Source: Agromyces sp. H17E-10
GTDB lineage: Bacteria > Actinomycetota > Actinomycetes > Actinomycetales > Microbacteriaceae
Direction: 5' to 3'
Length of the DNA: 64,000 nt
Assembly: GCF_022919715.1 (NCBI RefSeq)
Contig: NZ_CP095042.1
Location: 3,472,001 to 3,536,000, forward strand
Position numbers and translations under genes: made by a program. The first letter of the stretch is position 1. Each line of letters opens with the position of its first letter. Positions 6,346 to 28,947 of this stretch are shown here, in pieces. The notes under the pieces are model-generated. The model did no database searches. It worked only from the letters and a program-made list of their open reading frames with translations, and was not told where the DNA came from.

Positions 6346-6367
6346 CTCGCGTCGCGTCGCGTCGCGT
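6346..6367. repeat. Short GTCGC tandem repeat
   Basis: Three exact GTCGC units and one near copy abut the 3' end of the tRNA-Leu gene. No role is evident. Confidence 0.5.
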
Positions 6368-6448
6368 GCGGAAGGAGGGACTTGAACCCTCACGCCCGAA
6401 GGCACAGGAACCTAAATCCTGCGTGTCTGCCGATTTCACCACTCCCGC
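6367..6448 (-). tRNA. tRNA-Leu(UAG)
   Basis: Read on the minus strand, the 82-nt gene has a 7-bp acceptor stem (GCGGGAG with CTTCCGC, one G-T pair). It also has a D arm with a GG pair, anticodon stem CAGGA/TCCTG around loop TTTAGGT (anticodon TAG), a short class II variable arm and a T arm with GTTCAAGTC. CCA is not encoded. It decodes CUA, a rare codon here. Confidence 0.95.
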
Positions 6449-8831: not shown

Positions 8832-9818
8832 TCAGCGGGCGGCATCGCCCTTCGCGGCGGAGTCGTGTCCGAACAGCATGCGGGCGAGCACGAGCATCAT
8901 GGCGATGAACGCCGCGACGACCGGCAGCGGAGCCCACCACCAGCCGACCGTGAAGCCGAGCACGGGCACGAGCGCGAACGCGGTCAGCCAGATGACGGCG
9001 GAGTAGATGCCGAAGCGGGCGGCGGCGGCCGGGTCCTGCTCGAAGCGGTTGCCGACCTCGACGGCGTCGCGGTGCATCGCGAGCACCCACGGCTTGTGCC
9101 GGTTCGTCTGGGTCGCGCCGAGCGCGCTCAGCACGGCGATCGCGGCGACCGCCAGCACGGCGGCGAGCACGAGCCAGACGAGCTCGAGCCGCCAGACGAC
9201 GACGGCGGTGAACCCGAGGGATGCGACGAGCGTGCCGGTCGCGGCGCCGAACGCGACGGCGCGGCCGGTCGGCAGCGGGTAGTTCGTCGTGGTCTCCTGG
9301 CGGAGCGCGTCGGCGGTGACGACGCCGATCGAGAGTCCGAGCACCGCGGCGAGGGCGATGAGCGCGCCGGTCGCGAGCGGCATGAGCGGCGTGAGGCCCA
9401 GGGCGAGCAGCACGAGCGCGGCCGCCGCGACGATCGAGAGCACGACCGTGCGCACGACGAACGCGGGCTTCGGGCGCACCCGGTTGCGCAACGCGAGCTC
9501 GCTCGCCGTCGCGCCGCGACCGGTCGACGGCGCGGCGGCGCCGGCCGTGCGGGGAGCTCCGGCCGAGGCATCCGCCCCGTCGCCCGTGGCCGCGGCCACG
9601 AGCTCGCGCACGTCGCCGAGCTCGCCGATCGCCCGGCGCGCGGCGTCGGTGGGGGAGGCGCCTGCGACCTCGAGCTCGGCGACCCGCGAGAGCAGGTTGT
9701 CGCGGATCTCCTCCTTCAGGTCTTGCGCCTCGGGGGTGGGGTCGATGCCCGCGAAGGCCTCGTCGAGGAGTCGGTGCACCTCGGTCGAGGTGCGTGGGGT
9801 GCGGTTGGTCTCGCTCAT
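8832..9818 (-). CDS. Permease-prefix domain membrane protein
   Basis: The 328-residue protein begins with a soluble alpha-helical 'permease prefix' domain (about residues 10-75, with EIRDNLLSRVAELEVAGASP and AIGELGDVRELV). Six hydrophobic segments follow from about residue 125. Such proteins usually sit beside a PadR-family regulator and are membrane proteins of unknown transport role. The ATG at 9818 overlaps the stop of the upstream padR gene by 4 nt (ATGA), so the two are translationally coupled and the PadR protein probably controls both. Confidence 0.85.
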   Translation of the reverse strand: MSETNRTPRTSTEVHRLLDEAFAGIDPTPEAQDLKEEIRDNLLSRVAELEVAGASPTDAARRAIGELGDVRELVAAATGDGADASAGAPRTAGAAAPSTGRGATASELALRNRVRPKPAFVVRTVVLSIVAAAALVLLALGLTPLMPLATGALIALAAVLGLSIGVVTADALRQETTTNYPLPTGRAVAFGAATGTLVASLGFTAVVVWRLELVWLVLAAVLAVAAIAVLSALGATQTNRHKPWVLAMHRDAVEVGNRFEQDPAAAARFGIYSAVIWLTAFALVPVLGFTVGWWWAPLPVVAAFIAMMLVLARMLFGHDSAAKGDAAR

Positions 9819-10204
9819 CGCAGGGAGCCTTTCGTGTTCGCCGGCGCCGCCTGGCTGCCGAGCAGGGAGTCGATGATGGTGCGGGTCGCTACCCAGCTCG
9901 CCACGTTCTGGCGGAAGGCGGCGCGGCCCGCGTCGGTGATGCGGTAGTACTTGCGGCGGCCGCCCTGCGACTCGTCGCCCCAGTAGGCCTCGGCGAGGCC
10001 GTCGCGCACGAGCCGGCGGTAGCTGGCGTAGAGGGTGGCCTCTTTGATCTCGTAGCCGCCACCCGTCGCATCGCGGATGTGCTTGTAGATCTCGAAGCCG
10101 TAGCTGTCGTGCTCGCGCAGCACGCCGAGCACGATCGTGTCGGTGTGCCCGCGCAGCAGGTCGGCCGCGAAGGCGTCGCCGGTTGCCGCTGAATTTTGGA
10201 TCAT
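9815..10204 (-). CDS. PadR family transcriptional regulator
   Basis: The 129-residue protein has the winged-helix PadR pattern: DTIVLGVLREHDSYGFEIYK, EIKEATLYASYRRLVRDGL, and the wing GGRRKYYRITDAG. PadR proteins of this size repress a neighbouring membrane-protein gene in response to small molecules or envelope stress. It is the first gene of a two-gene unit with the permease-prefix protein (4-nt overlap). A -10-like TACAGT lies 7 nt before its ATG, suggesting a leaderless mRNA, with AAGTAC repeats around the promoter as possible autoregulatory sites. Confidence 0.9.
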   Translation of the reverse strand: MIQNSAATGDAFAADLLRGHTDTIVLGVLREHDSYGFEIYKHIRDATGGGYEIKEATLYASYRRLVRDGLAEAYWGDESQGGRRKYYRITDAGRAAFRQNVASWVATRTIIDSLLGSQAAPANTKGSLR

Positions 10205-10301: not shown

Positions 10302-10592
10302 ATGTCCGACGCCGTCCGCACCATCGCCGAACGCGTGCGAACCCGGGTGCTGCGCGACGGCGTCGATCTCGCCGGTGCCGGCGACCTCGCCGCGCGCTAC
10401 GCGCACGAAGAGGTGCGCCGGTACAGCGAGCGTGCGCTCACCGGCACGCACGCGGCGCTCGCCGACGAGCTCGGCACGACGCACGAGGTCGTCGCCGAGC
10501 TCACCGGCTACGGTGCGCTGCAACCCTTCTTCGACGACGAGACGGTCGAGGAGATCTGGATCAACGGGCCCGCGCGCGTTTTGTCAAGCTGA
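10302..10592 (+). pseudogene. cpaF: cpaF/tadA pilus ATPase, N-terminal remnant
   Basis: About 92 residues match the start of the CpaF/TadA secretion ATPase: a helical N-terminus, then LADELGTTHEVVAELTGYG and FFDDETVEEIWINGPAR, which in intact CpaF leads on to the ATPase core of a ~400-residue protein. Similarity stops at about 10579 and the frame ends four codons later at 10592 in unrelated lower-G+C DNA. The Walker motifs are absent, so the product cannot power pilus assembly. A tadG remnant at 17802-18176 is the other edge of the same deletion. Start is the ATG at 10302. Confidence 0.85.
10562..10570. repeat. Left junction microhomology CAACGGGCC
   Basis: The 9-bp string CAACGGGCC within cpaF recurs at 17797-17805, at the other junction of the island. 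Confidence 0.5.
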
Positions 10593-10618
10593 CAGGGCCG
10601 GTTCAGTATGCTCACAAG

Positions 10619-11134
10619 GTGATCAATGCCGCCGCGAACGAGGACCTCTGGCACGCTGCCGAGTGGCTCTCGTTTTGGCAGCTTGTTGTAACCGTCATCG
10701 GCCTTGGGCTGGCAGTCGCCCAACTTTGGCGAACCGCTGATGCGACTGTTGCTTCGAAGGATCTGCTTGCACGGAGATTGCTGAGCAACGACCTTCTCGT
10801 GATGCTTCCCGAGATCCATACTCTGGAGGATGAGCTGCTCCAGTCCGTCAAGAGCAACGATCCGGATCTCGTCGTAAACGCTCTGCTTCATCTCTCCCGT
10901 CGTGCGGGGTCGATTCTCGGGCATCTCGCTGCGAACGACGGCACGAAGGATGAGAAGATCATCAAGCAGTTGAGAGCGGCGATGAAGGCAGCTCAGGCGG
11001 CGAAGTCAGAACTAGCGGGATCGCCGACCGGTCGACCGATTCAAGAAGTTGTGAGCCTGACCGTGTCGAAGTTGTCAACCGTTTCGACCGAAGCGAGTGA
11101 ACTCGTAGCACGGCTTCAGAAGGAGGCTAAGTAG
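10619..11134 (+). CDS. Hypothetical protein, single membrane segment plus helical domain
   Basis: I do not recognise this 171-residue protein. One hydrophobic segment (FWQLVVTVIGLGLAVAQLW, about residues 19-37) is followed by an all-helical, charged region. The start is taken as the GTG at 10619; earlier in-frame sequence belongs to the antisense context of cpaF. The stop codon overlaps the GTG of the next gene by one base, and a strong ribosome site (AAGGAGG) for that gene lies within its end. The two therefore form a coupled membrane/soluble pair. Codons such as AAG GAT, CTT and ACT mark it as island DNA. Confidence 0.6.
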   Translation: MINAAANEDLWHAAEWLSFWQLVVTVIGLGLAVAQLWRTADATVASKDLLARRLLSNDLLVMLPEIHTLEDELLQSVKSNDPDLVVNALLHLSRRAGSILGHLAANDGTKDEKIIKQLRAAMKAAQAAKSELAGSPTGRPIQEVVSLTVSKLSTVSTEASELVARLQKEAK

Positions 11135-11499
11135 TGGTCATTGATGACAGAGACCTGGCTGACATTGCGACGGGTCTGGTGGTGGCCACCAGAAGGGGTT
11201 CGCTCAAGTGGTCCGTTTATGATGCGGACTCGGGCGAATACACGGCGCAGAGTCAACGGTTTACGTACTATCTGAAGCCTCGAGACGAGGACGGTTCCGC
11301 GCCCTTCATCTTCGAGATTTATCGTCCCGCGAGTGAGTCAGCGCCGCAAGCTGTCCAGCTCGTTCAGGTCTCGTCCTCCAAGTCTCCGATACTGCTTCAA
11401 CCGATTGCCGAGCTATACAACCTTGCACGGCTCGATGCCCTTGGCATCACCAATCTCAAGGCCGATGTGCTGGGAGACCTTGGGATCGATCCGGTGTAA
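11134..11499 (+). CDS. Hypothetical soluble protein, partner of the preceding membrane protein
   Basis: I do not recognise this 121-residue protein. The first ~80 residues look beta-rich (TGLVVATRRGSLKWSVYD, RFTYYLKPRD, FIFEIYRP) and the end is helical (IAELYNLARLDALG). It has no membrane segment. The GTG start overlaps the preceding stop (TAGTG) and has the strong ribosome site AAGGAGG, so translation is coupled to the membrane protein. A membrane component with a small cytosolic partner inside a defence-type island would fit an abortive-infection or toxin-antitoxin pair, but nothing in the sequence proves it. Confidence 0.65.
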   Translation: MVIDDRDLADIATGLVVATRRGSLKWSVYDADSGEYTAQSQRFTYYLKPRDEDGSAPFIFEIYRPASESAPQAVQLVQVSSSKSPILLQPIAELYNLARLDALGITNLKADVLGDLGIDPV

Positions 11500-11539
11500 T
11501 AGCGGCCGAAACGTCGGAGGCGCCTCGTAACGTGCTCTC

Positions 11540-11806
11540 GTGATTGTGCCCCAGCCGCGACCGGTGCGCCGCCGACGCGAGTCGGAGCCATCGCGCTGGG
11601 GCGTCTACCTCGACGGTGTGCGCATCGGCGAGCTGCATGAGGTGCGCATGCCTGGTGCCCGATCGGTGTTCTACGAGGCGCTGGTACCGCACCCGGTGAC
11701 CGGCAAGCCCATCAGCCTCGAACTTCACCCCGACCGCGAGCAGCGACTGCGAGCCATCATCGCCTTTCATGAGGACCCGATGACGGGAAAACGGCACTGG
11801 TCGTAG
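11540..11806 (+). CDS. Small hypothetical protein
   Basis: The 88-residue protein has a basic N-terminus followed by a compact domain (RWGVYLDGVRIGELHEV, VFYEALVPHPVTGKPI, REQRLRAIIAFHED). I do not recognise the family. GTG starts at 11540 or 11546 are both possible, with GGAGG about 20 nt upstream of the first. It lies 40 nt after the preceding gene and 13 nt before the HEPN gene, which appears to have its own promoter overlapping this gene's end. Confidence 0.5.
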   Translation: MIVPQPRPVRRRRESEPSRWGVYLDGVRIGELHEVRMPGARSVFYEALVPHPVTGKPISLELHPDREQRLRAIIAFHEDPMTGKRHWS

Positions 11807-11807
11807 G

Positions 11808-11813
11808 TAGGGT
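11808..11813 (+). promoter_or_regulatory. Putative -10 box, leaderless
   Basis: TAGGGT lies 6 nt before the ATG at 11820 of the HEPN gene. Confidence 0.4.
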
Positions 11814-11819
11814 TCGAAC

Positions 11820-12596
11820 ATGGAGCCCGCCGAAGCTGTCAACATCATCGAGAGCGACCTGCGGTGGATTATGAGGGCGGTACTCAAGGGTGACTATGGA
11901 TTCACTACCGCGTTCCTCGCTGAGCTTCAGAAGCGATACGACTCCGAGGAAGAGAAGCGCCGACCGGCGAAGGTCAGCAGCGAGCTTCTCGACTACACCC
12001 ATCTTGGCGAGTTGAAGGACCTCATCGTCAAGCGAACCAATTGGCCGTCGTTCAAAGACGCTTTCCTCAACAAGGACGAGTTCAGTGCCCTCTGCGCCTT
12101 CGCGGGGCGATACCGAAACACAGTCGCTCACAGTCGCGAGCTACTCCCGTGGGAGCGAACACACCTCGAAGGAATCGCAGGCGTTCTCCGAGCGCAGGTG
12201 ACGGTCTTCATGAGCACGAAGGGTCCTGACATGGAGTATTACCCCGCGATTGAGCGCATCACAGACTCATTTGGCAACTCACGTGAGGGCTTACAGCAGC
12301 TCGGCGTGGTATTGACGGAGACTGCGCTCAGGGTCGGCGATATCGTGACGTTCAGTTGCCGAGGAAACGACCCTCAAGGTCGTGAACTGACGTGGACTCT
12401 CGGAACTTCGACCACGCGTGGATCGACTTCTGTAGTCGGGCCGGAGGTCACACTTTCGTGGGAGGTGACGGAGGACGACGTCTCGGACTCGACCATGGTG
12501 GCGATCTCGCTCAGTAGTGCAGGCAAGTACCACCGCAGCGTCACGTACGACGACAGGCTCAACTTCGTCTACAAGGTGATTCCTCCCATCGAGTGA
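11820..12596 (+). CDS. HEPN (Swt1-like) domain protein with C-terminal beta-sandwich domain
   Basis: The 258-residue protein carries an HEPN motif at Arg99-x4-His104 in GRYRNTVAHSRELLPWE, typical of Swt1-family HEPN domains. Catalytically active HEPN proteins are metal-independent RNases, common as toxins and in phage defence. From about residue 160 the sequence switches to a beta-rich domain (VGDIVTFSCRGNDPQG, LTWTLGTSTT, VTLSWEVTEDDVSDS) resembling an Ig/PKD-like fold, plausibly a binding or sensing module. It has no partner antitoxin in tight linkage and seems to have its own leaderless promoter. RNase activity is inferred. Confidence 0.7.
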   Translation: MEPAEAVNIIESDLRWIMRAVLKGDYGFTTAFLAELQKRYDSEEEKRRPAKVSSELLDYTHLGELKDLIVKRTNWPSFKDAFLNKDEFSALCAFAGRYRNTVAHSRELLPWERTHLEGIAGVLRAQVTVFMSTKGPDMEYYPAIERITDSFGNSREGLQQLGVVLTETALRVGDIVTFSCRGNDPQGRELTWTLGTSTTRGSTSVVGPEVTLSWEVTEDDVSDSTMVAISLSSAGKYHRSVTYDDRLNFVYKVIPPIE

Positions 12597-12599
12597 GAC

Positions 12600-12830
12600 C
12601 TACTGCCGTGCGTGGCGACCCTTCGCTGACTCCAGTTCGGCGAATCGTTCGTCATGCGCAGCGAGCTTGCGTTCGATGCGGTCCACGGCATCCTTCATCG
12701 TCGAGCCGCCGTTGTTCTTGCGGCTCTGGCGAATCGCAAACGGGAGCACGACGGCGCAGATAGATACGGGATGGGCCGGGGCCACTGAGCCGCAAGCTTC
12801 TGTCAGAGTCGAGGCCATGGGCATCAACAA
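12600..12830 (-). CDS. Possible small hypothetical protein, perhaps a remnant
   Basis: An up-to-76-residue frame has a short hydrophobic stretch (VSICAVVLPFAI) followed by a charged helix (KDAVDRIERKLAAHDERFAEL) that looks like a genuine coiled coil. The N-terminal part is poor and no ribosome site is visible, so this may be the end of a decayed membrane-anchored coiled-coil protein. It converges with the HEPN gene. Confidence 0.3.
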   Translation of the reverse strand: MLMPMASTLTEACGSVAPAHPVSICAVVLPFAIRQSRKNNGGSTMKDAVDRIERKLAAHDERFAELESAKGRHARQ

Positions 12831-13158
12831 ACTTGTGCGACTCCGACCCTGACGAGATGGACAGATGGAGCTCCGGAAAAGGACGCGATTGACCCTGACC
12901 AGATCCGCACCCAGCGGAAGGGCGAGGCCCGCTCAGGCCGGAGCCCGTGGACGCCGCGCCGATCCCTTCAACACCCGATGAGCTGGTCGGGTCCACGCGC
13001 TAGGTGCGGGACAGCCTGTCCACGGACGTTGAGCGCATGATGCTGGACACCGTAGCCATCCGACCATCCTGCCTGCGGGATCCGGAAGAGTGCTCGGTTT
13101 GGACTCGGTGCGGGTATTTTGGTGCAGCTCGTTCCCGCTCGCATTTCCGGCTGCTCCG
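12831..13158. other. Gene-free stretch inside the island
   Basis: I see no convincing coding region, RNA gene or repeat in these ~330 bases. Base composition is intermediate between island and chromosome. Confidence 0.5.
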
Positions 13159-13164
13159 TATGCT
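13159..13164 (+). promoter_or_regulatory. Putative -10 box, leaderless
   Basis: TATGCT lies 6 nt before the ATG at 13171. Confidence 0.45.
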
Positions 13165-13170
13165 GAGACC

Positions 13171-14421
13171 ATGCTGCACACGCCTCTACACAGAGCGCTC
13201 GGCGAGCGTCCTGGTCCCCTCACAGATCAGATGATCGACGACGCGGTCGCTCAGGGCATCGGGGAGAACGACGAACTCGACTGGAAGACGGCTCTTCCGC
13301 CCGAGAAGGAGTTTCGCGAATCCGACATCGTCAAAGACATCGCTGCCTTCGCCAACGCCGGTGGCGGGATCATCGTCTTCGGAGTAAGTGAGACGAACAA
13401 GGCTGCAGGCGGTCGACACGATGCCGGTGAACTCACCGAGGGATACGAGCGAACGATCCGACGGGTAACCATGGCGGCAATCACGCCCCCGGTGTTCGGC
13501 GTCGAAGTCGTCGCCATTCCCTCGACGACGGGGGCGCGGGCTGTGGCGCTCTTGATTCCCGCCAGCCCGGATGGTCCGCACCTTGTGTATCGCAACGACC
13601 AGTTCGGCGCACCGCTCCGTACCGGAGCGGATACACATTGGATGAAAGAACGCGAACTCGAAGCCGCCTACCGGTCACGCTTTGAAGGGGCACGCCGCGG
13701 CGAAGAGGCGTTGCACCAGATCTACGACGACATCGCAGCCGCCGCCGATCCAAGCGATCGCGCGGTGCTCGTCGGCGCCGCACGGCCTCGCAGCCGGCGA
13801 CCGCGCTCCGAGCCTCTCGAGAGTGTGGCTAGCACTGTCGATCGAGCCCAACTGGTCACCCGCTGGTGGCTTGGCGGACTTAAATACAGTCCGCTCGAAG
13901 ACGTGGAGATGTATCAAGCCCGCCCTACGCTCGGCGGGCAGTACCTACCCCCCAAGAGCCCGAACGACTACCGCGAAGCGCACGCAGTCCTCCTCGATGA
14001 CGGTTCGGTTGGCCTGTCGTGGCGCGCGGGTGGGCATGAGCGCGACAAGTCTGGGCGACATCACGAGCCGCACCAGATACCCACCCTCGCAGTCGATGCT
14101 TTCGCTGCCGCGCTCGTCGCGCTCATACATGCGGTGGCCGGTGAGAGTCCTGCCGGCGACTACGACGTCATCCTCGGTGTTGAAGCTGCTATGCCGCCCG
14201 AGTTCCATGATCGCAATGCCGCCCCGCCGTCTGGGGTGCACCGGTCACTGAGCGGCCGATTCCGCCCTGTGCGGGTCACCGTCGACCCGTCCGTCAATGA
14301 CACGCAGTTCATTAGCGCGGCCATTGATGTCGCGACCTTGGCCCTGAACCAGGTCGGGATCAAGAAGCCCACAAACCTCGACACCATGCTTCCCCCGCGT
14401 CCCGCTAACTGGACTTGGTGA
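13171..14421 (+). CDS. AlbA_2 (Schlafen-like) putative DNA/RNA-binding protein
   Basis: The 416-residue protein starts with an AlbA_2 domain (about residues 30-150): ENDELDWKTALPP (E35, D37, K39 in the position of the Schlafen E-x-D/E-x-K cluster), DIVKDIAAFANAGGGIIVFGV, and a later THWMKERELEAAYR. AlbA_2 proteins are prokaryotic relatives of eukaryotic Schlafen nucleases and are often found in mobile elements and defence loci. The C-terminal ~250 residues are unrecognised, with no ATPase motif. A TATGCT box 6 nt before the ATG suggests a separate leaderless transcript. Nuclease function is possible but unproven. Confidence 0.75.
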   Translation: MLHTPLHRALGERPGPLTDQMIDDAVAQGIGENDELDWKTALPPEKEFRESDIVKDIAAFANAGGGIIVFGVSETNKAAGGRHDAGELTEGYERTIRRVTMAAITPPVFGVEVVAIPSTTGARAVALLIPASPDGPHLVYRNDQFGAPLRTGADTHWMKERELEAAYRSRFEGARRGEEALHQIYDDIAAAADPSDRAVLVGAARPRSRRPRSEPLESVASTVDRAQLVTRWWLGGLKYSPLEDVEMYQARPTLGGQYLPPKSPNDYREAHAVLLDDGSVGLSWRAGGHERDKSGRHHEPHQIPTLAVDAFAAALVALIHAVAGESPAGDYDVILGVEAAMPPEFHDRNAAPPSGVHRSLSGRFRPVRVTVDPSVNDTQFISAAIDVATLALNQVGIKKPTNLDTMLPPRPANWTW

Positions 14422-14579
14422 TCCAGCCTGATGACTCCGCGAAGCGGGACACCTTGCCAGAAGGGTCCCCTTCAGGCATAGGCTCCCATGTGCCAGTGGC
14501 GGCGAGGGTCGGCAGCGGCGACAGGCGGACCAAGGCCTTGCTTCACCCGCCCCGAAGCAACAGCGCCGCGCCGCTCTGC

Positions 14580-14585
14580 CATAGT
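14580..14585 (+). promoter_or_regulatory. Putative -10 box, leaderless
   Basis: CATAGT lies 7 nt before the ATG at 14593. Confidence 0.4.
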
Positions 14586-14592
14586 CGAGATC

Positions 14593-15594
14593 ATGGGGAT
14601 CAATAACTGGTGGGACTCCGACTCCGATGAGATCTATTGGATGGAGATCCGAAAGGAGCCCGTCGGGTTGGGGGAGTATCTGCGCGCTCCGCAGGCAGCA
14701 TTCGACGGCAACCCATCGTGGTCCTACGAGCTGACTTCCTACGTGCAGCCGGGCGACCGAGTGTTCCACTGGCACGAGACGAGGACAGGTGAACCAGGCA
14801 TCCTTGGGTGGTCCGAGGCTGTAGGACCGCTTCAAACCATCACCTGGTCTTGGCAGGCGCGCGGTACTCGCGGGCGCGGGCGCGGGGTGCCTACGGTTGG
14901 ACCGACGTGGAACCTGCCGCTGTCGAACTACACCGAGCTCGAGACCCCCGTCACGCGGTCGGCCCTCAACGCCCGCCGTGCAGATGTCTTAGAGGTCCGA
15001 GACAGCCTGATCCGGGTATATGGCAAGCCGATCTACGCACCATTCCAGAACTACGGCGATCGCGAGCTGCGTGCTCAGCAGGGCTATCTCACCAAGTTCC
15101 CTGCCGCGCTTGTTGCCCTCCTCTTTGACCTGCCATCGGTCAGTGCATCTAAAGTGCCGAGCGACCGAAGAAGGACCGCTCGGGCGAGGCACGGTCAGGG
15201 CTACCTTGCCGACGCTGAGAAACGCACTGCACTTGAGCGCCACGCCGTCCACATGGCCATCGAGCACTACCGTGCCGCTGGCGCGACCGAGATTGAGGAG
15301 CTCGGCAAGCCGTACGATCTGCGTGTGACGTTGGATGGGATAGAGCGTCACGTCGAGGTCAAGGGTTCGGTCGGCGACGAGCTGGGCAGTGTGCAGCTCA
15401 CGCAGGGTGAAGTCGACCATGCCCGGACCTACCAACCGACCGACCTTTTCGTAGTCGATGGGATAGCTGCCTCCCGGGACGTTGACGGGGCCATTGCGAC
15501 GAAGGGAGGGGTCGTGCGTATATGGCTGGGCTGGATGCCTAGCGACAAGGCACTTCGTCCGACCCATCTGCGCTATACGCTCCCGGCTGTGTAG
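14593..15594 (+). CDS. EVE-like/DUF3883 protein, putative modified-DNA restriction nuclease
   Basis: The 333-residue protein opens like an EVE/PUA-type reader of modified bases: NNWWDSDSDEIYWMEI, GLGEYLRAP, VQPGDRVFHWHE, GILGWSEAVG. The C-terminal part is a DUF3883-type PD-(D/E)xK nuclease: an N-terminal helix ALERHAVHMAIEHYRAAG, Asp242 in PYDLRV, Glu255-Val-Lys257 in HVEVKGS, then LTQGEVDHAR. This combination suggests a type IV-like restriction enzyme that recognises modified DNA and cleaves it. An AMP/ATPase partner is not fused; the P-loop ATPase at 15805 follows 210 nt downstream in the same direction and could cooperate. Activity is inferred from motifs. Confidence 0.7.
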   Translation: MGINNWWDSDSDEIYWMEIRKEPVGLGEYLRAPQAAFDGNPSWSYELTSYVQPGDRVFHWHETRTGEPGILGWSEAVGPLQTITWSWQARGTRGRGRGVPTVGPTWNLPLSNYTELETPVTRSALNARRADVLEVRDSLIRVYGKPIYAPFQNYGDRELRAQQGYLTKFPAALVALLFDLPSVSASKVPSDRRRTARARHGQGYLADAEKRTALERHAVHMAIEHYRAAGATEIEELGKPYDLRVTLDGIERHVEVKGSVGDELGSVQLTQGEVDHARTYQPTDLFVVDGIAASRDVDGAIATKGGVVRIWLGWMPSDKALRPTHLRYTLPAV

Positions 15595-15804
15595 CGCGAG
15601 GAGGTCCCGTTCGACAGCATCGCTCGACCCGATTCCGGCCCGTCCCTGAGGACTTCGAATCTGATCGTGGGCGGTTTTGATTCCCGTCACCCCCTGCAAC
15701 GCCCTATACGGGGTCTCGGACTAGCGCCCCCAGGCGCGAATCGGGATCCCCGCGAAACGCCGTGCCCGCCGGGAACGCTGGTCGCGCTATGCCAAACTCG
15801 CCGT

Positions 15805-17235
15805 GTGGCTGATGACGAGAGCACCCGCGAGACGCTGTACGTCCCGGATCGCTTTGAGATGTTGCGCGACGTGGGCGAGGGAACGCTCAAGACCCTAGTG
15901 ATTGCGGTAGACAGCAGCCTTCACTTGCTCGATGACCGGTTTGAAGACCTCCAAGCGGCAGGGCGTGGCGGGCTCATGATTCTTCGAGGCGACCCCGGCA
16001 CAGGTAAGTCCACGTTCCTCGACACCGTTGGTCTCTTCAGGGACGGTGTGACCACAGTCCATATCTCAAACGACACGGACGTCGCGCAAGCCCTACAGAC
16101 TCTGCCTTCCACGGACGTGCCGCGAATCGTCGTCATTGAGGGAAGGGAAGCTCTTCTCGACGTTTCACAGGCTGCGCTTGAGGCTTTCATGCACAGTATC
16201 AACGGGTTCGTTAGATCCCCATCGGGGCGCTCAACGCTCGTCGTCTGGCCGACCAACACTGACGCGCTAGCGGAGGCGCTCGCCAATCTCGGAAAGCAGA
16301 TCGGGGGTTCGGCACTCCTCGGAGTAGGCGACTCGATCGTCCATTTTGACGGGCCGCCGAGGCCACAGTACATCCGCATCGGCGAGCTCACCGTCGCTGC
16401 CTTGAACGACAGCGCCTCGCTGCTCGCGTTAGGTGTCACAAACGACCGGGCCGAAGAGCTCGCCGCCCAGGCGGACTCTGTAGGCGACTTCCTCGCGCTC
16501 CTCCGAGGGGAACTGCGTAAGAACGGCGCCCGTGTCAAAAAGCTGCTGCAAGTCGAACAGCCTCGCGTGTGGGTCGTGGTGATAGCTGGCAATGACCCGG
16601 AGGGTGATGTGGCGGCGGTGACGCGAGGGGAGCAATCGCATGCCGACGTCCCACGGCTGATGTCATCAACCGGCGCCAACATCGTGGCGGAGCTAAAGGA
16701 GGAGCCTGACACGCTCGGAATCCTTGGCACTGTGCTCGATGCGCGGGTGATGCACGTGGAGCAGATTGCCGCGCTGGCGATCGCTCGCCAGTTTGGAAAT
16801 GAGAAGCTGCGTGCATTGATGAAGATGGAGGGTCTCTCCACCGCTCGCGATAAGAAGGCTGTGGAAAGAGTCCGTTCCAGCGAACTTGGTGTTCTCCTCG
16901 GGGGCGGCAAACTCGGAGTGAAGCGGCGCGGCAAGAAGGCAGGCGGAAGCACGACGACCGCGTTCGCGGGTCTCGCCAAGATCGCGCAGACAAATGACGG
17001 TCTGCTGAACCGCGCGATCGCGGATGCACTAGTCGAGGCCGGATTGGCAGACGCCTACGAACTGGAAAAGGAGCTGTCGGGACCCGTCAAGTACTTCAGC
17101 GACATCGCGGTACGCCAAGGGGATGACCTCATTCGCATAGAGGTGATGTGGCGTCTCAAGACTGGGCGAGCGCAGATTTCCAACTACGTGCTCTCCAAGC
17201 TTGGCAATTACGCGAAGGCTGTCGGCCTCTTATGA
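15805..17235 (+). CDS. P-loop ATPase with possible C-terminal nuclease-like segment
   Basis: The 476-residue protein has a Walker A motif GDPGTGKST (residues 62-70), a Walker B-like VVIEGRE (about 109-115) and a sensor-like WPTN (149-152), so it is an AAA/STAND-like NTPase. The middle region is helical. Residues 360-385 form a basic Gly/Lys-rich linker. The C-terminal segment (SDIAVRQGDDLIRIEVMWR, then SNYVLSKLGNYAKA) has an Asp433...Glu446 arrangement reminiscent of PD-(D/E)xK nucleases but lacks a clean ExK. I do not recognise the family. The start is a GTG at 15805; the upstream 46 in-frame codons look non-coding. It follows the EVE-DUF3883 gene. Confidence 0.6.
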   Translation: MADDESTRETLYVPDRFEMLRDVGEGTLKTLVIAVDSSLHLLDDRFEDLQAAGRGGLMILRGDPGTGKSTFLDTVGLFRDGVTTVHISNDTDVAQALQTLPSTDVPRIVVIEGREALLDVSQAALEAFMHSINGFVRSPSGRSTLVVWPTNTDALAEALANLGKQIGGSALLGVGDSIVHFDGPPRPQYIRIGELTVAALNDSASLLALGVTNDRAEELAAQADSVGDFLALLRGELRKNGARVKKLLQVEQPRVWVVVIAGNDPEGDVAAVTRGEQSHADVPRLMSSTGANIVAELKEEPDTLGILGTVLDARVMHVEQIAALAIARQFGNEKLRALMKMEGLSTARDKKAVERVRSSELGVLLGGGKLGVKRRGKKAGGSTTTAFAGLAKIAQTNDGLLNRAIADALVEAGLADAYELEKELSGPVKYFSDIAVRQGDDLIRIEVMWRLKTGRAQISNYVLSKLGNYAKAVGLL

Positions 17236-17625
17236 CCCGGGGTCGACGAGGGCTCAGACTGGCGGCAACTGATCCAAGGGAGAGTCACGTCGCCCCCTCG
17301 AAGTGATCGCTGGGACTGAGGCGCTGTTGCGCTTGCCACGGTGTTGACCGTCCACGGTGAGCCGGTAGCCGTGGTGAGGCCTTCTGCGTTGAGCGCGTCG
17401 GCGGTACCGGTCAGCGTGTGTGTGGTGCGAAGGGCGAGCAGCCGGTCGCCCGTGAACTGCGGCAGCGCGGACACCCGGCCCATGTGCTTACCCTGACGCT
17501 CGGCGGCCTGCATGGCGGCAGACGTGCGTTCGCCGATCACGCGGCGCTCCCACTTCGCTACCGACGTTGGCAACCAGCTCCCCGGTCGGGGTCGACGTGT
17601 CGACGGGGGCGTTCTTTGTGGCCAT
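17211..17625 (-). pseudogene. Serine recombinase/resolvase remnant, truncated and frameshifted
   Basis: One frame (17625-17563) reads MATKNAPVDTSTPTGELVANV, the region before helix E of serine recombinases. The next frame (from 17564) continues SVAKWERRVIGERTSAAM, KHMGRVSALPQF and a resolvase-type helix-turn-helix (TGTADALNAEGLTTATGSPW). The N-terminal catalytic region with the nucleophilic serine is missing and there is a frameshift at about 17563, so it cannot be active. The frame runs past its natural end into the 3' end of the ATPase gene. A ribosome-site-like AAGGAGAG and a perfect SOS box lie upstream. It is probably the decayed mobility gene of the island. Confidence 0.75.
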
Positions 17626-17653
17626 GATGCTCTCCTTGTCGGCCCAGTGGAAT

Positions 17654-17671
17654 CTCGAACGTATGTTCGAG
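17654..17671. promoter_or_regulatory. LexA/SOS box
   Basis: CTCGAAC-GTAT-GTTCGAG is a perfect palindrome and fits the Gram-positive LexA consensus CGAAC-RNRY-GTTYG exactly. It lies about 30 nt upstream of the ATG of the recombinase remnant (17625, minus strand). Confidence 0.65.
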
Positions 17672-17796
17672 TGGAATGGAACTTTGCCTGACGGGGACCC
17701 TTCGAGCAAACGGGCCATGAGACGGTGCGCGGCGGGGTGTCGCTTGCGTGGCAGCGGGTGTCCTCGCCCGCGTCGTTGAGAGACCGCAGGGGTCGC

Positions 17797-17805
17797 CAAC
17801 GGGCC
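17797..17805. repeat. Right junction microhomology CAACGGGCC
   Basis: Identical to 10562-10570 in the cpaF remnant. It lies where tadG-like sequence resumes. Confidence 0.5.
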
Positions 17806-18176
17806 GGGGCTACGCCCTCGTGCTCGTCGTGGCGTCGGCGACCTCGCTCTACCTCGACCGCAAGCGCCTCTTCACCCTCGCCGACGGTGCCGCGCTCGCC
17901 GGTGCCGAGATCTGGAACCTCGACGAGGTCCGCGTCGACGGTGGAGAGCTCGCGGTCGAACTCGACGACACCGGCGTCCGGCGAGCGGCGAGCGAATACC
18001 TCGGCGACGCCGTGCGCGAACTCGACGAACTCGAACTCGTCTCGGCCGGCTCGGGCGACGGTCGAACGGCGACCGTGACGCTCCGCGCCGTCTGGCACGC
18101 ACCGATCTCCACCGAACTCGTGCCGATCACGGTGCCCATCGAGGTCACGGCGACGGCGCGCTCGGTGTTCCACTGA
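17802..18176 (+). pseudogene. TadG-like pilus assembly protein, C-terminal remnant
   Basis: About 125 residues match the TadE/TadG-like family: hydrophobic GYALVLVVASATSLYL, then the family motif DRKRLFTLADGAALAGA, and a beta-rich extracellular end. The N-terminus and any start codon have been lost at the island boundary (about 17800). Upstream in-frame sequence to 17748 does not resemble the family. Together with the cpaF remnant it shows that a tad/Flp pilus locus once stood here and has been deleted from the inside. Confidence 0.75.
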
Positions 18177-18270: not shown

Positions 18271-18669
18271 ATGACGATCGAGATCTCAGACCACTTCGCC
18301 CGCATCCTCGAAGCGCCCGTGTTCGCCTTCCTCGGCACCACCCGCCCGAACGGCGAGGTGCAGGTCAACCCGATGTGGTTCGAGTTCGACGCCGAGACGC
18401 AGACCATCCGGTTCACGCACACGACGAAGCGCGCGAAGTTCCGCAACCTGCAGCAGAACCCGGCCATGACGCTCGCGATGACCGACCCCGAGAACGCGCA
18501 CAAGTACGTCGAGGTGCGCGGTCGCCTCGCCGAGGTCGTCCCCGACCCCGAGGGCGCCTTCTACGTGCACCTCGGGCAGCGCTACGGCGACGCCGACACC
18601 CCCGTTCCCGCCGACCACCCCGACCGCGTCATCCTCGTCATGCAGATCGAGAAGGTCAACGGCCGCTGA
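18271..18669 (+). CDS. PPOX class F420-dependent oxidoreductase
   Basis: The 132-residue split-barrel protein has the pyridoxamine-oxidase-like pattern APVFAFLGTTRPNGEVQVNPMW, FTHTTKRAKFRNLQQNP, and KYVEVRGRLAEVV. Actinobacterial members of this size bind F420 or flavins and reduce unknown substrates. The ATG at 18271 is preceded by GGAG only 1-2 nt away, so translation initiation may be weak; no in-frame alternative fits the family better. It is transcribed alone and ends facing the MFS gene across an inverted-repeat structure. Confidence 0.85.
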   Translation: MTIEISDHFARILEAPVFAFLGTTRPNGEVQVNPMWFEFDAETQTIRFTHTTKRAKFRNLQQNPAMTLAMTDPENAHKYVEVRGRLAEVVPDPEGAFYVHLGQRYGDADTPVPADHPDRVILVMQIEKVNGR

Positions 18670-20221: not shown

Positions 20222-23200
20222 TCAGCGGACGCCCTTGGCGGGAGCCGCCTCGAACGCCTTCTCGATCTCCTGCGAGAAGGTGTTGCCCGCGGCATCCTTC
20301 GCGGTCACCCGCAGGTCGACCCAGCCGCCCTTGTCGGAGACCGGGATCTTCGCGGCATAACCGCTCACCCAGGCGCGGCTCTTCACGAAGATGTCGCCGT
20401 CGCCCTCGACCGCACCCGTCGGGTAGTCGGTCTTCGCGGGCTTCAAGGCGATCTCGACCCACTCGCCGCCGGCGCTGCGCGCCTCGAGCTTCGCGTCGGT
20501 GATCGCACCCGCCGGTGCACTGCCGGCGACGTGGCCGAGCTCGAGCCCGAGCTCGATGCCCGTGCCCTTGCGTCGATCTGCGCCCGCCTGGTTCGCGACG
20601 TCGACGTCGAGGTCGTAGTACGCCTGGATCATCGGCAGGAGCCGGTTCGTCCAGTCGCCGAGCTTGCCGTCGCTCGTGAACGTCCAGTCGCTCACCGTCT
20701 TCGTCGAACCCTCGAGGTGCGAACCGTCGTGCGTCGCCGTGCTCACGACGCGCCACTGCTGCTCGCCGTCGCGCAGGTCGAAGATGTTCGCACCCTGGTG
20801 CTCGGCCTGCTTGACGAGCTCGCCGTCGATGTAGACGTCGGTCGTCTGCTTCACGGTCGACGGCTCGATCCAGGTGTCGAACGTGCCGGTGTGGTCGGCG
20901 TCACCGCCGTCGGCCCAGCTCGGCACGTTGATCTGGGTCCAGTCGGACGTGCGGTAGGGCACCCAGAATCCGGTGGCGACGTACGGGCGCACGATGCCGC
21001 CGAAGTACTCCTCGTTCGTGCGCTCGCCGGCCTCGTACGTGCGCTGGAGGTCGCGGATCTCCCACATCACCGACATGACGGCGACCCACTGGTTCCAGCG
21101 GAGGCCTTCGGTGTTGACCCATTCGGTGCGGTCCATGCCGCGCTGCGCGATCATCGGGAAGCCGCTGCCGTACTCGGCACCCGGCACGAAGTCGTAGCGG
21201 AACTCGCCCAGCTGCTCCTTCTGGCCGTGGAACCGGGTGTCGATGCGGGCGAGGTCCTTCTTCGAGTGGGTGTACGAGAGGTCGGTCGGGATCACGCCGT
21301 CGCCGTACTCCGCGATGTCGTACACGACGTCGGAGTAGTGGGTGCCGATGGCCGACACCGAGAGCTTCGGCTTCTTCGCGAGCTGCGCGAGCAGCTCGCG
21401 CCCCTGGACGCCGCTGATGAGCGCGACGGGGATCGCGACGTCGGAGAAGTCCGTCTCCGAGCCGACCCACGCGTTGAACTCGGGGTCGGCGTCGTTCGCG
21501 AGGATGAGCAGCTTCGCACCGGCGGCGACCGCGTCGGCGGCCTGCTGCGAGGCCGATCGCTCGGGCGTGCGGGTCACGACGACGATCTTGCCGGCGGCGC
21601 CGGCCGCGGCGAGCTCGTCGGGGGTGCCGGTGCCGGCGTCGACGGCGGTCGCCTTCAGCGAACCGTCGATCAGGGCGGAGCCGCCGGGCACGATCAGGTC
21701 GAGCTGCTGCTTGCCGGCGGTGACCGCGAGGAGCGGCTTCTGCAGGCGCCAGCGCGTCGTGAAGTCGAAGTCGGCGTCGTCGACCGTCATGGGCTGCGCC
21801 CACATCTCGTCGGTCCAGATCGGCATCATCGCGCTCGCGAGGAAGTCGTCGACCTTCATGTCCATGCGGCGGAACACCTGGTCGAGGCCGTCTTCGCCGA
21901 CATCGAGCGTGACCTGCTCCGTGGTGCGCGCGTCGAGCGCGACCATCTGGTCCTTGTCCAGCTCGACGATCGGCTCGCCGACCATCACGCTCGCGAGCGT
22001 GTCGGCGGTGCGCTGCAGCTCCATGAACGACATGACGGTGTAGTCGCCCTTCATGAGGCGCAGCGTCGTCTCACCGTCGACCCACACCGGCTCGGCGAAC
22101 TGGGTCGCCGGGTTCCAGAGGTACGCGTAGGTCGCGGTCGGGTTGCCCTCGAAGTCGGTCGCCGTGATCGTGAGGTCGTAGCGCTCGGCCTCGGCGATGG
22201 TGCCGAGCGCCGTGCGCGTGACCGGCGTTCCGTCGATCGAGCCCACGAGCGCGCCCGAGAGCTGCGTGCCCGCCGGCACCTTCGAGGGGTCGACCGTCAT
22301 CGTGACCGACCGGGTCTCGCCCGCCGGGATCGTGAGCGACTCGGCGTCGACCGTGAGTGCGTCGAACGCGACGCCGGCCGTCGCCGAGAGGGGGCCGGGG
22401 TCGCCGCCCCCGTCACCGGGCGTGGTGTCGGCGAGGGTCGGCTCGAGCGCCACCGTGACCTCGGCGTCGGTGCGGTTCGTGTACTCGACGGTGCGGGTGA
22501 CGGGTGCCGGCTCCTCGCCCCAGGCGAGCATGCCGAAGTCGCCCGAACCCGAGGCGACCACAGGTGCGTCGAGGGCAGCTGCGACGTTGATGACGCCCGT
22601 TCCGCCCTGGTACGGCGTGTAGCCGAGGTCGACGGCCGTGCTCGCGAGCGCCGCCTTCAGCTGGTCGGCCGTGAGGTCGGGGTGCGCGCCGAGCAGGATG
22701 GCGGCGGCGCCGGCGACGTGCGGCGTGGCCATCGAGGTGCCGCTCATCGAGATGTACGGGCCCTCGCCGTTGCTGTCGGCCGAGCGGGCCGCGGTGACGT
22801 CGTTGCCCGGGCCGGTGACGTCGGGCTTCATCGCGCCCGATCGTGCGAGCGGGCCCTGGCTCGTGAAGTACGAGAGGTACCCCGACGGGTCGTCCACGGA
22901 GCCGACGGTGAGGGCGTCGGCCGCCGAACCCGGGGCGCCGATCGTCTCGGCCGCACCGGCGTTGCCGGCTGCGACGACGAACAGCGCACCGGTCTCCTCC
23001 GAGATGCGGTTGAGCGACTCGGCCATGAGGTCCTTGCCGTCGGATGCCTCCGACGAGCCGAGGCTCATCGACACGATCGGCGCGTTCTGGCCGGCCCATT
23101 CCATGGCCTCGATGATCCACGAGTCCTGGCCGTAGCCGTCGTCGCCGAGCACCTTGCCGACGAGGAGGTCGGCGCCGTCGGCCACGCCGCGGTGGGTGCC

Positions 23201-24088
23201 GCCGCTCGCGGCGCCCGTGCCGGCGATGGTCGAGGCGACGTGCGTGCCGTGGCCGTTGACGTCGGTCGCGACATCCCCACCGGGCACGAAGCTCTTCGAC
23301 CCGGGCAGCACGTGGCCGGCGAGGTCGGGGTGGGTGTCGTCGTAGCCGGTGTCGAGCACCGCGACCGTGACGCCCTCACCCGTGTAGCCCTCGGCCCACG
23401 CCTTCGGGGCGTCGATGTAGGGCACGCTCGAGTCGAGGGTCGCCTGCACCTTGCCGTCGAGGTGGATCGCCGAGATGCCGTCGGCGAGCGTCGGCGTCGC
23501 CGAGAGGCTGCGCGCAGACGGACCGGTCGACGCGGTGAGCGCCTGCCAGGCCGAGGCCGAGTCGTCGTGGCCGAGGGTCGCGGCCGCGCCGCCGATGCTC
23601 TCGAGCTGCGCCTGGACGTCGAGTCCGGGAACCGGAGCGGCGAAGGTGCGCGCGGTGGGTGCGGCCTGCTCGACGATGATCGGCGTCGCGTCGACCGACG
23701 CATCGTCGTAGCCGAACTCGATGAGCTTGGTCACGTTGAACAGGTCGCCGTCGAGGGAGCCCGACGCGAGGTAGGGCATCGCGTCCTGGGGAACGACGTG
23801 CAACTGCCCCGCCGCCTCGTACGTCTGCACGCCGGCGCCGTCGACGGCGGTGTCGACGGAGACGGTGTGGGTGCCGTCGGTGAGGTCCGTCACCGTGACG
23901 CGATCGCCGGTGATCAGCGTGACGGTGTGGGCACTGCCGGCGGCCGCGCTCGCGTGGGGAACGCTGGCCGCGGGGGCGGCGGCCGCCGGCAGAGACGCGA
24001 GGCCGATACCCGCGATGCCGATCGCCAGGCCGCTTGTGGCGGCGACGATCGGCAGCAGGCGGCGGCCCGAGGGTTGGGGTCGTGACAT
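20222..24088 (-). CDS. Secreted S8 family serine peptidase (subtilase), 1288 aa
   Basis: A signal peptide (residues 1-38: RR, hydrophobic core, AAAAPA) is followed by a pro-region. The subtilisin triad is Asp246 (VAVLDTGYDDTHPDL), His280 (NGHGTHVAST) and Ser452 (SGTSMATPHVAG), with the oxyanion Asn376 in AAGNAGA. The rest, about 750 residues, is beta-rich. It includes a region like a PA domain (AAGAAGKIVVVTRTPE ... AAGAKLLILANDAD), which often shapes substrate access, and Fn3-like segments. It is far longer than simple subtilisins and probably degrades proteins outside the cell. No sortase signal or C-terminal anchor is visible. GAGAGG precedes the ATG. It is divergent from a regulator gene. 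Confidence 0.92.
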   Translation of the reverse strand: MSRPQPSGRRLLPIVAATSGLAIGIAGIGLASLPAAAAPAASVPHASAAAGSAHTVTLITGDRVTVTDLTDGTHTVSVDTAVDGAGVQTYEAAGQLHVVPQDAMPYLASGSLDGDLFNVTKLIEFGYDDASVDATPIIVEQAAPTARTFAAPVPGLDVQAQLESIGGAAATLGHDDSASAWQALTASTGPSARSLSATPTLADGISAIHLDGKVQATLDSSVPYIDAPKAWAEGYTGEGVTVAVLDTGYDDTHPDLAGHVLPGSKSFVPGGDVATDVNGHGTHVASTIAGTGAASGGTHRGVADGADLLVGKVLGDDGYGQDSWIIEAMEWAGQNAPIVSMSLGSSEASDGKDLMAESLNRISEETGALFVVAAGNAGAAETIGAPGSAADALTVGSVDDPSGYLSYFTSQGPLARSGAMKPDVTGPGNDVTAARSADSNGEGPYISMSGTSMATPHVAGAAAILLGAHPDLTADQLKAALASTAVDLGYTPYQGGTGVINVAAALDAPVVASGSGDFGMLAWGEEPAPVTRTVEYTNRTDAEVTVALEPTLADTTPGDGGGDPGPLSATAGVAFDALTVDAESLTIPAGETRSVTMTVDPSKVPAGTQLSGALVGSIDGTPVTRTALGTIAEAERYDLTITATDFEGNPTATYAYLWNPATQFAEPVWVDGETTLRLMKGDYTVMSFMELQRTADTLASVMVGEPIVELDKDQMVALDARTTEQVTLDVGEDGLDQVFRRMDMKVDDFLASAMMPIWTDEMWAQPMTVDDADFDFTTRWRLQKPLLAVTAGKQQLDLIVPGGSALIDGSLKATAVDAGTGTPDELAAAGAAGKIVVVTRTPERSASQQAADAVAAGAKLLILANDADPEFNAWVGSETDFSDVAIPVALISGVQGRELLAQLAKKPKLSVSAIGTHYSDVVYDIAEYGDGVIPTDLSYTHSKKDLARIDTRFHGQKEQLGEFRYDFVPGAEYGSGFPMIAQRGMDRTEWVNTEGLRWNQWVAVMSVMWEIRDLQRTYEAGERTNEEYFGGIVRPYVATGFWVPYRTSDWTQINVPSWADGGDADHTGTFDTWIEPSTVKQTTDVYIDGELVKQAEHQGANIFDLRDGEQQWRVVSTATHDGSHLEGSTKTVSDWTFTSDGKLGDWTNRLLPMIQAYYDLDVDVANQAGADRRKGTGIELGLELGHVAGSAPAGAITDAKLEARSAGGEWVEIALKPAKTDYPTGAVEGDGDIFVKSRAWVSGYAAKIPVSDKGGWVDLRVTAKDAAGNTFSQEIEKAFEAAPAKGVR

Positions 24089-24234
24089 GCGCGAGCCTCT
24101 CGGTGTAGGGGGAATCCGTGTGACCACCTTCGCCTCCCGCTCGCCTAAAGTGGTGGCGGAGTCCCGCCATGGCTGCGATCCGCCACGGTCCGTGGGTTTC
24201 CGACCGGGGCGAAGCGGGAGACGAGGAGGCCACC

Positions 24235-25194
24235 GTGCTCGAGGCACTCGGACTCGACGAGGCGCACACCGCCGTGTATCGCTGCGTGCTGCAGCAGCGG
24301 GTGGCGTCGACTGCCGAGATCGCGGCGGCGCTCGGCATGTCGCTGCCGCGCGTGCGCTCCATCTCGAGCGAGCTCGAGGGACTGGGGCTGCTCGCCCGCC
24401 AGGCGTCGAACGCCGACCGGTTCGTGGCCTCGCCGCCGTCGATCTCGCTGCGACCGCTGCTGCTCGAACGCGAACGCGGCCTCACCCGGGCGCACGAGGC
24501 GCTCGCCGAACTGGGGGAGCTCTATCGGCGCTCCGCCGACCAGCGCACCGTCGCGGATGTCGTCGACGTCGTGGTCGGCGACGACGCGGTGCGCCAGCGC
24601 GTCGCGCAGCTGCAGGCCGCCTCGACCGAGCAGGTGCGGGCGCTCGTGCTGCACGAGGTCGCGCTCGTGAGCAACGACGAGAACGTCGAGGAGGATCGCG
24701 CGCTCGAACGCGGCGTGCGGTACCGCGTCATCGTCGAGAGCGGCGTGCTCGAGCGACCGGGCTGGCTCGCCGCGGCGCGCGAGATGACGCAGATCGGCGA
24801 GGAGATCCGGGTGCTGCCCTCGCTGCCCACGCGCATGTTCATCGCCGACGACCAGATGGCGCTCGTGCCGATGCGCTCCCAGGGCGACGACCAGGGATTC
24901 GGCGCACTCCTCATCCACCCGAGCGGCCTGCTCGACCTCGTGAGCGCGATCTTCGAGGAGTACTGGCGCAGCGCCACCGCGTTCCTGCCGGTGGCCGCGC
25001 CGCCGAGCGAGGAGGCCGTCGACCGCGACCTCATCCGCCTGCTGCTGCTCGGCGCGACCGACGCGGGCGCCGCGGCGCAGCTCGGCATCTCGCTGCGCAC
25101 GCTCCAGCGCCGCGTCTCGGAGCTCATGGAGACGGCGGGGGTCACCACCCGGATGCAGCTCGGGGCCGAGGCCGTGCGCCGGTCGTGGGTCTGA
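24235..25194 (+). CDS. TrmB-like/LuxR-tailed transcriptional regulator
   Basis: The 319-residue protein starts with a TrmB-type winged helix ([46 protein letters not shown]). It ends in a second helix-turn-helix resembling LuxR-type domains ([32 protein letters not shown]). The GTG at 24235 is preferred because GAGGAGG lies 5 nt upstream; an ATG at 24169 is also in frame. The intergenic region of 146 nt is shared with the divergent subtilase, so it probably controls that gene. The signal it senses is unknown. Confidence 0.75.
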
Positions 25195-26416: not shown

Positions 26417-27123
26417 CGCGACGCGGCGTCGCCCTCGCGCTCGTCGTGCCCGCCGTCGGCGAGCATCGCGCGGAGTCCGGCGACCAGGGCGGCGACGCCC
26501 AGTTCGAAGGTGCGGTCTGCGGCCGGGATGCCTCGGGCCGCCGCATCGGCCGCACGTCGGGCTTCGGCGCGGCTGAAGTGCGGTGCGCTCGGCGCGGCGT
26601 CGCCCGGTGACATGATGTCGGCCGGCGCGAGCGAGTCGAGCGCCGACCCGATGATGAACGACTCGAGCGCGACGAGCGCGTCGACCGCACGATCGGCACG
26701 CCAGCCCTCGCGCAGCAGTCGCGCGACGATCGTCTCGTAGTTCGCCACTGAGCGCGTCTGGCCGTCGATCGCCGTCGTGGCGAGCAGGGCGATGCCCGCG
26801 GGGTTGGCGGCGAACGCGTCGCGATACGACCTGGCCCAGCGCAGCACGGCCTCGTCGAGGGGCGTGGAGGCGTCGTCGAAGCCCGCGACGTCGAGCAGTT
26901 CGGCGATGCGCCCGCGCATCGCGCGCACGACGTCGGCCTTGCCGCGGAAGTAGTGGTAGAGCGCCGGCGGGTGCACCGACAGCGAGCGGGCGAGCGCGGC
27001 CATCGTGAACCCCTCGGGCCCGGCCGTCTTCGCGAGCGCGAACGCGGCGTCGACGATCTGCTCGGCGCTCAGCACGGGCGTGCGGGGGCGGCCTGCGGTG
27101 CGTTTCGTCGGGGTCGGGCTCAC
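26413..27123 (-). CDS. TetR family transcriptional regulator
   Basis: The 236-residue protein has the TetR N-terminal helix-turn-helix ([42 protein letters not shown]) and a helical C-terminal ligand domain of the TetR_C_33-like kind. It is divergent from the amidohydrolase gene across a 136-nt gap holding an AT-rich palindrome, and is most likely its repressor. Its stop overlaps that of prfB by 4 nt on the other strand. Confidence 0.88.
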
Positions 27124-27198
27124 GGGCTCCTCGGGTTCGTTCGTTCGTCGTGGGTCGTCGATTTGTTCGCGCGCGTCGGGCGGAGTAACGTGTGCCCG

Positions 27199-27217: not shown

Positions 27218-27259
27218 GCGCAGCCGGCCAACGAGGGCGACGGCGCGGAAACGAGCAGC

Positions 27260-28924: not shown

Positions 28925-28947
28925 CCCCCTTCGAATCCGAGGCAACC

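Follow-up and report, generated by a model that had tools for sequence, protein, structure and literature searches.

The window analysed here, a stretch of 64,000 nucleotides from the 4.25-Mb single-contig genome of Agromyces sp. H17E-10 (NZ_CP095042.1, positions 3,472,001 to 3,536,000), contains a Tad/Flp pilus locus in which most of a seven-gene operon, termed tad-1 below, has been replaced by a 7.2-kb island. The tad-1-type operon is a recurrent target of mobile-element insertion, and the island is most probably what is left, worn and rearranged, of one or more integrative elements with a large serine integrase of a family that enters tadC. Genomes and loci are referred to below by our handles (G and L, respectively).

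The extent of the replacement is apparent from a close relative, G028 (locus L041), in which cpaF, tadB, tadC, flp, tadE1, tadE2 and tadE3 lie intact between the same flanking genes (sub-threshold NCBIfam matches for CpaF and TadE3 only, the other names resting on order, size and eye), with 3.9 kb separating the points equivalent to the two breaks of the window. Positions 10302-10583 align to codons 1-94 of the G028 CpaF with 80% amino acid identity, and homology to the intact loci ends at ~10582, i.e. at codon ~94. The tadE/G-like homology resumes at ~17807-17817 and runs through to the stop codon at 18176, thus comprising the last ~120 codons, and the corresponding 142-aa frame matches the Pfam family Tad (PF13400) at E 4e-5, just missing the cut-off. 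Both fragments lie on the + strand, and what is lost between them is the remainder of cpaF, tadB, tadC, flp, tadE1, tadE2 and the start of tadE3. The G+C content at third codon positions (GC3) is 0.65-0.80 in the island genes, as against 0.88-0.97 in the neighbours and the two tad fragments. The flanking DNA is 82-93% identical to that of G013, G032 and G028, which rules out a chance resemblance of the locus; a tRNA-linked island was likewise ruled out, the nearest tRNA being at 6366-6448. A preliminary description of this stretch had recognized the first ~92 codons of cpaF and the last ~125 codons of a tadG-like gene on the same strand, with lower-G+C DNA in place of the intervening genes. 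The alignment to G028 and the GC3 comparison bear out this picture, with the lengths corrected to ~94 codons (alignment to G028 CpaF) and ~120 codons (homology from ~17811), and in the genus the same fragments without an island occur in none of the 55 further evaluable genomes. The features of the locus are as follows.

9815-10204, - strand: PadR-like regulator (named by eye), left-flank anchor; same-site neighbour 98, 96, 96 and 89% identical in G013, G032, G028 and G022
10302-10582, + strand: cpaF fragment, codons 1-94, aligned to G028 CpaF 1-94 as above
10619-11134, + strand: i1, 171 aa, by eye helical with an apparent membrane segment; no convincing family match
11134-11499, + strand: i2, 121 aa; no family match
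11540-11806, + strand: i3, 88 aa; 47-48% homologue on the element within flp of G027
11820-12596, + strand: i4, 258 aa, HEPN/Swt1-like; PADLOC candidate defence model PDC-M34B, E 5.6e-9; Pfam HEPN_Swt1 below cut-off
12932-13128, + strand: large serine integrase relic, last ~65 codons, frameshifted; 50-55% to the integrase tail of element L127, E 1e-8
13231-14421, + strand: i5, AlbA_2 (Schlafen-like), 396 aa; Pfam PF04326, E 1.9e-10; 79-80% to a frameshifted gene beside the L127 integrase
14593-15594, + strand: i6, NOV_C (DUF3883-like), 333 aa; Pfam PF13020, E 2.9e-6; 51-52% partial homologue in G274
15805-17235, + strand: i7, AAA ATPase-like, 476 aa; weak sub-threshold AAA matches; 60% homologue in G073
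17318-17604, - strand: short resolvase relic, frameshifted and without its N-terminal half; 72% over 79 aa to the L127 resolvase (six-frame view)
17811-18176, + strand: tadE3 (tadE/G-like) fragment, last ~120 codons; Pfam Tad match as above, alignment to G028
18271-18669, + strand: right-flank gene, anchor, which we take to be pyridoxamine-oxidase-like; 94-95% identical in G013, G032 and G028

The tad-1-type cpaF, or its site, was located in 57 of the 60 genomes of the genus, that of the window included. In 45 of these the operon is intact (L041 and 44 others), in 11 it is interrupted, and in one (G079) the locus starts at a contig end; an intact operon was defined as seven genes on one strand, in order, with gaps below 600 bp and within coverage limits, and G014, G065 and G078, for which there is no tad-1-type cpaF match among those listed, were left out of the count. 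Six of the interruptions are clean insertions that keep both halves of the target gene, with the element lying in cpaF in G016 and G076 (the latter with a tyrosine-recombinase-like gene, by eye), at the MLVP site of tadC in G023 and G034, at the IAF site of tadC in G032, and in flp in G027. The remaining tad genes are near-full-length in five of these six, and in G016 the stretch examined ends inside tadC. In G000, G063 and G013 tad-1 genes have been replaced, all or most of the operon having been lost in G013 and G063. Loci of two other types provide a control: 20 per type were taken, including nine (tad-2 type) and eight (tad-3 type) of the 10 other interrupted genomes, and none of 20 tad-2-type or 21 tad-3-type loci, the window genome's own among each, is interrupted. 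One tad-2 locus, L143 of G026, is cut by a contig end, and in L155, L161 and L163 single pilin genes are unmatched, but the spacing is too tight for an insert; in the tad-3 type, marked by an RcpC-like gene (by eye), cpaF, tadB and tadC lie together at every sampled locus. Fisher's exact test gives p 0.002 for 11 of 56 versus 0 of 41, and p 0.004 when one interrupted genome is dropped (10 of 55), values to be taken as a guide only since the control genomes were hand-chosen and the genomes are related.

The same operon is struck at one tadC codon across the family. In a sample of 299 family genomes, at least 211 of which have a tadC match at E 1e-8, seven of the listed matches break off at codon 289-301 where no contig end intervenes (G302, G315, G158, G200, G190, G195 and G357), and each of the seven has at a junction a serine recombinase of the kind described here; G339, whose match stops at a contig end, was left out. 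Including G023, G034 and G187, the codon between MLVP and L(V/I)F (closely similar residues in some) is occupied in nine genomes of seven genera (both junctions seen in seven, one in G158 and G195), and elements in G357 and G032 occupy the second tadC site, IAF. The nine MLVP-site integrases are 38-80% identical to one another, those of other sites mostly ~30%, and the flp-site integrase of G027 is 40-45% identical to some of the MLVP-site ones. Separate integrases target separate sites in cpaF, tadC and flp. In the five insertions whose new frame was read to its stop (G302, G200, G034, G195 and G023; the remaining tadC insertions were read for 10-30 codons only), TadC does not regain its last hydrophobic segment; judged from sequence, the gene should thus be inactivated by the insertions. 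In G158 (L179/L180) two serine-integrase elements apparently stand in tandem in one tadC, one at MLVP and one at IAF.

The island of the window is connected to these insertions chiefly through L127, a ~14-kb element that lies in the tadC gene of a tad-1-type operon in G187, a genome of another genus. The integrase tail and the AlbA_2 gene follow each other in the same order in the window and in L127, with 72% DNA identity over 1,488 bp, and the resolvase is also shared; the integrase of L127 is still whole. AlbA_2 homologues are found in nine of the 299 sampled family genomes, that of the window included, and the nearest (79%) is the one in G187, directly after the large serine integrase. The integrase relic matches eight of the nine MLVP-site integrases (E 1e-8 to 0.03) and none of six others (best 0.22), with E-values that are lenient given a search space of 701 bp. 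Neither end of the island has a complete integrase gene, only the last ~65 codons of one being present, in frameshifted form, and two halves of one target gene are not retained, the cpaF and tadE3 fragments belonging to different genes. The remaining cargo is of more scattered affinity: i1-i4 have no counterpart in L127; i6 has its partial homologue in G274 ~4 kb from a serine recombinase gene abutting a cpaF cut at ~codon 82 (a single junction was seen, and the cpaF start lies outside the stretch examined); and the homologue of i7 in G073 lies near a serine recombinase gene elsewhere in that genome. A search of the AAA protein against genome contigs gave one locus, on a Streptomyces contig. 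No tad locus was found in the stretches examined around the NOV_C homologues of G004, G243 and G343 or the i4 homologues of G102, G178 and G305. Taken together, the island most simply appears to be a mosaic of worn mobile-element parts, and assembly in several steps seems more likely than in one because the integrase and resolvase pieces are truncated and frameshifted and the L127-matching block is inverted; the single event proposed in the preliminary description is thus disfavoured.

Near-full-length relatives of the L127 integrase are present in actinophages, such as the Streptomyces phages phiScoe3 and phiCAM, with 33-38% identity in 15 records listed. In this respect, and in the capsid and prohead protease genes placed by eye on the G034 element, the elements resemble actinophages or phage satellites; they differ from actinophages in that none of the 376 matching phage records reaches 60% identity to the L127 integrase, and in that no capsid match was found on the other elements scanned. 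The G034 element itself (L095/L113, ~8.8 kb, in tadC) has the look of a capsid-coding phage satellite: it carries one phage capsid and one prohead protease match, an integrase of its own and an AlbA_2 homologue (39%).

On the reading that we favour, an element would have integrated into the operon by site-specific recombination, splitting a tad gene; its integrase and resolvase would have decayed and part of it would have become inverted relative to the operon; further cargo (i1-i4) would have joined; and the tad genes would have been deleted from cpaF codon ~94 to tadE3 codon ~26. Both this order of steps and the original insertion point are what we infer. Several observations weigh against it. 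The L127-like block lies inverted relative to the tad genes when set beside L127. Within the island no tad remnant or attachment site that would mark the insertion point was detected beyond chance-level matches of 13-15 bases. The G034 integrase is the sole one of the nine at the MLVP site without a match to the window relic, and i1, i2, i4 and i7 have no counterpart on the tad-inserted elements examined. Two of the interruptions counted in the genus are weaker, namely G021, with a TIR gene in a divergent cpaF and contig ends nearby, and G026, where tadB breaks off at codon 57 and no mobile gene is clearly present, and comparison with the tad-2 loci alone gives a Fisher p of 0.057.

The genome retains two more full cpaF genes, at 717 kb (L061) and 1490 kb (L062), both in intact tad loci. 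L061 is a small cluster with a TadA above the TIGR03819 cut-off, one TadBC-like gene and an Flp-like gene with a G/AATAEY site, and L062 has RcpC-, TadG-, TadE- and Flp-like genes (names in both partly by eye); the pilin sites in the tad-1 operon of G028 are G/SAVAEF in TadE1 and G/SASLEF in TadE2. The 717-kb-type cpaF (by score band) is present in at least 54 of the 60 genus genomes and the 1490-kb type in at least 37 (hand count). These genes are paralogues of other types common in the genus and not moved genes, which rules out a translocated tad-1: one of three tad loci has been lost in this genome, not relocated. The claim that the pilus machinery was deleted therefore stands for this operon and fails for the machinery as a whole.

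Defence genes are common at this locus, though no rate is claimed. They include type IIG restriction enzymes in G063 and G357, a PDC-S53 protein in G315, a type II (EcoRI-type) methylase and a GmrSD-like gene on the G023 element, a cytosine methylase and Vsr on the G187 element, an ATPase in G013 that matches AriA at E 3.5e-34, and a TIR protein in G021. The scan covered 63 of 121 listed genes and one more, hand-picked, and the methylase, GmrSD, Vsr and capsid matches were assigned to genes partly by eye, the counts having been per family; of 10 hand-picked cargo genes, seven have a PADLOC match at 0.001 and three have none. As for the window itself, the earlier view of the cargo as defence-type is plausible in the light of its HEPN-like, AlbA_2, NOV_C and AAA proteins, but no island gene was matched to a proven defence system; searches of PADLOC, Pfam and NCBIfam gave no complete known system, PADLOC contributing just the candidate PDC-M34B and further weak matches. 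In G013, which has the most similar PadR gene (98%), two genes, one of them for an AriA/PtuA-like ATPase, stand in place of the whole tad-1 operon (L039, 4117-6426), an event different from that in the window; the name PARIS was dropped for this pair, the partner of the ATPase matching no PADLOC model at E 0.001. In G021 (L046, 8475-9572) the TIR-domain gene lies within the divergent cpaF, whose codons 207-213 are matched on either side.

Among the neighbours of the lost operon, a 1341-aa open frame at 20222-24247 appears by eye to encode a secreted subtilisin-type (S8) protease, and positions 25307-35242 contain prfB-, ftsE-, ftsX- and smpB-like genes (by eye) and a tmRNA; in G187 a prfB-like gene is likewise close to the tad-1-type operon.

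Other explanations of the locus were weighed against the favoured one. It is possible, if on the doubtful side, that tad-1 is non-essential and decays under relaxed selection, mobile DNA gathering in it without advantage to the elements. The loss of all or most of the operon in G013 and G063 agrees with this, and the present data fit benefit and tolerance alike. However, the near-full-length state of the other tad genes in five of the six clean insertions shows that insertion precedes decay, the operon is intact in 45 of 56 genomes, the two other tad types are spared in the loci sampled, and separate integrases aim at separate sites in three of its genes. An unlikely alternative is that the island was already composite when a single homologous recombination brought it and the shortened flanks in from a donor with a previously replaced tad-1; the loss here would then be one event, and the single-event view of the preliminary description would hold for this strain. 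The conserved flanks would permit such an exchange of a donor allele, but this island is on none of the other tad-1 loci examined (the AAA gene was sought in all 60 genus genomes, the others in the family sample with six genus genomes), the G034 element offering just its 39% AlbA_2 homologue, and among the loci compared G032 and G028 are the nearest for the two fragments as well as for the flanks (by alignment only). That the pilus was lost as a phage receptor, with defence genes arriving in the process, as first proposed, is improbable despite the frequently defensive look of the cargo (type IIG in G063 and G357, PDC-S53 in G315, the AriA-like protein in G013 and TIR in G021), for integrase site choice accounts for the insertions, cpaF, tadB and tadC are still together in 21 of 21 loci of the tad type with an RcpC-like gene, the layout of tad-1 is that of a transformation cluster of Micrococcus luteus, and no evidence of tad-1 as a phage receptor turned up, no dedicated search having been made.

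In M. luteus, tad-1 (Mlut_07500-07560) and tad-2 (Mlut_18150-18190) are both needed for natural transformation, by the knock-outs given in the relevant portions of PMC4322843, which also list pilin-like sites of the form G/XXXXE[FS] for tad-1 and a fused tadBC with a G/XXXXEY Flp for tad-2. The operon studied here is like the M. luteus tad-1 described there in its order (tadA-tadB-tadC, pilin-like genes, tadG-like gene), in its seven genes (locus tags counted in tens) and in the E[FS] pilin motif, and L061 shares the layout of tad-2, with one fused tadBC gene and a G/XXXXEY-type Flp; the M. luteus tad-1 of that account is intact and knock-out-tested, whereas the operon of the window has been replaced and is known from sequence only. 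ComEC (PF03772) is found in 58 of the 60 genus genomes, that of the window included, and a ComEC-type gene is kept in nine of the 10 other interrupted genomes, the exception being G026, a draft of ~810 contigs. Because the operon has the layout of a cluster essential for transformation in M. luteus, an interrupted or lost tad-1 probably means no DNA uptake, and the elements would thereby be shielded from removal by transformation. On the other side of the scale, the likeness to M. luteus is one of layout only, and transformation in this genus is argued by analogy. Moreover, the tad-2-like cluster, of a kind also essential in M. luteus, is unhit in 20 loci, as a pure block on transformation does not predict; its sparing limits the competence argument, though it may only reflect site recognition by the integrases.

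Disruption of competence genes (comYC, comFA, comK and comM) by mobile elements is known from Firmicutes and Proteobacteria (Croucher et al. 2016, PMC4774983), and a whole-word search of the main text of that paper gave no Micrococcus, Actinobacteria or tad. As in the cases set out there, related integrases use orthologous sites of one gene in different species and genera, several unrelated elements strike different genes of one pathway, and the targets include a DNA-uptake pilus; the present case differs in its large serine integrases, its Tad/Flp operon and its actinobacterial family. At tad-1, independent insertions have struck one and the same gene of a presumed competence pathway more than once. 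Top-ranked PMC titles and abstract starts, a scope with subscription journals mostly outside it, yielded no report of mobile elements in an actinobacterial tad operon, and PMC6563490, in which the words tadC and serine recombinase occur, is unrelated by the passages that contain them.

We put forward only tentatively, at a little short of even chances, the view that this family has in its Tad-type DNA-uptake operon a hotspot with several attachment sites: several integrase lineages would have converged on cpaF, on two codons of tadC and on flp, and their elements, often with defence genes, would repeatedly switch off transformation and escape curing, the window representing an end state in which the operon is permanently lost. 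The insertions also supply an integrase family whose chromosomal site is single, defined and conserved, together with a locus in which to seek new defence genes. If the above view is correct, the family would offer an actinobacterial parallel through a quite different, Tad/Flp-type uptake pilus and serine integrases, and the idea of intragenomic conflict would become testable in a phylum with little-studied competence.

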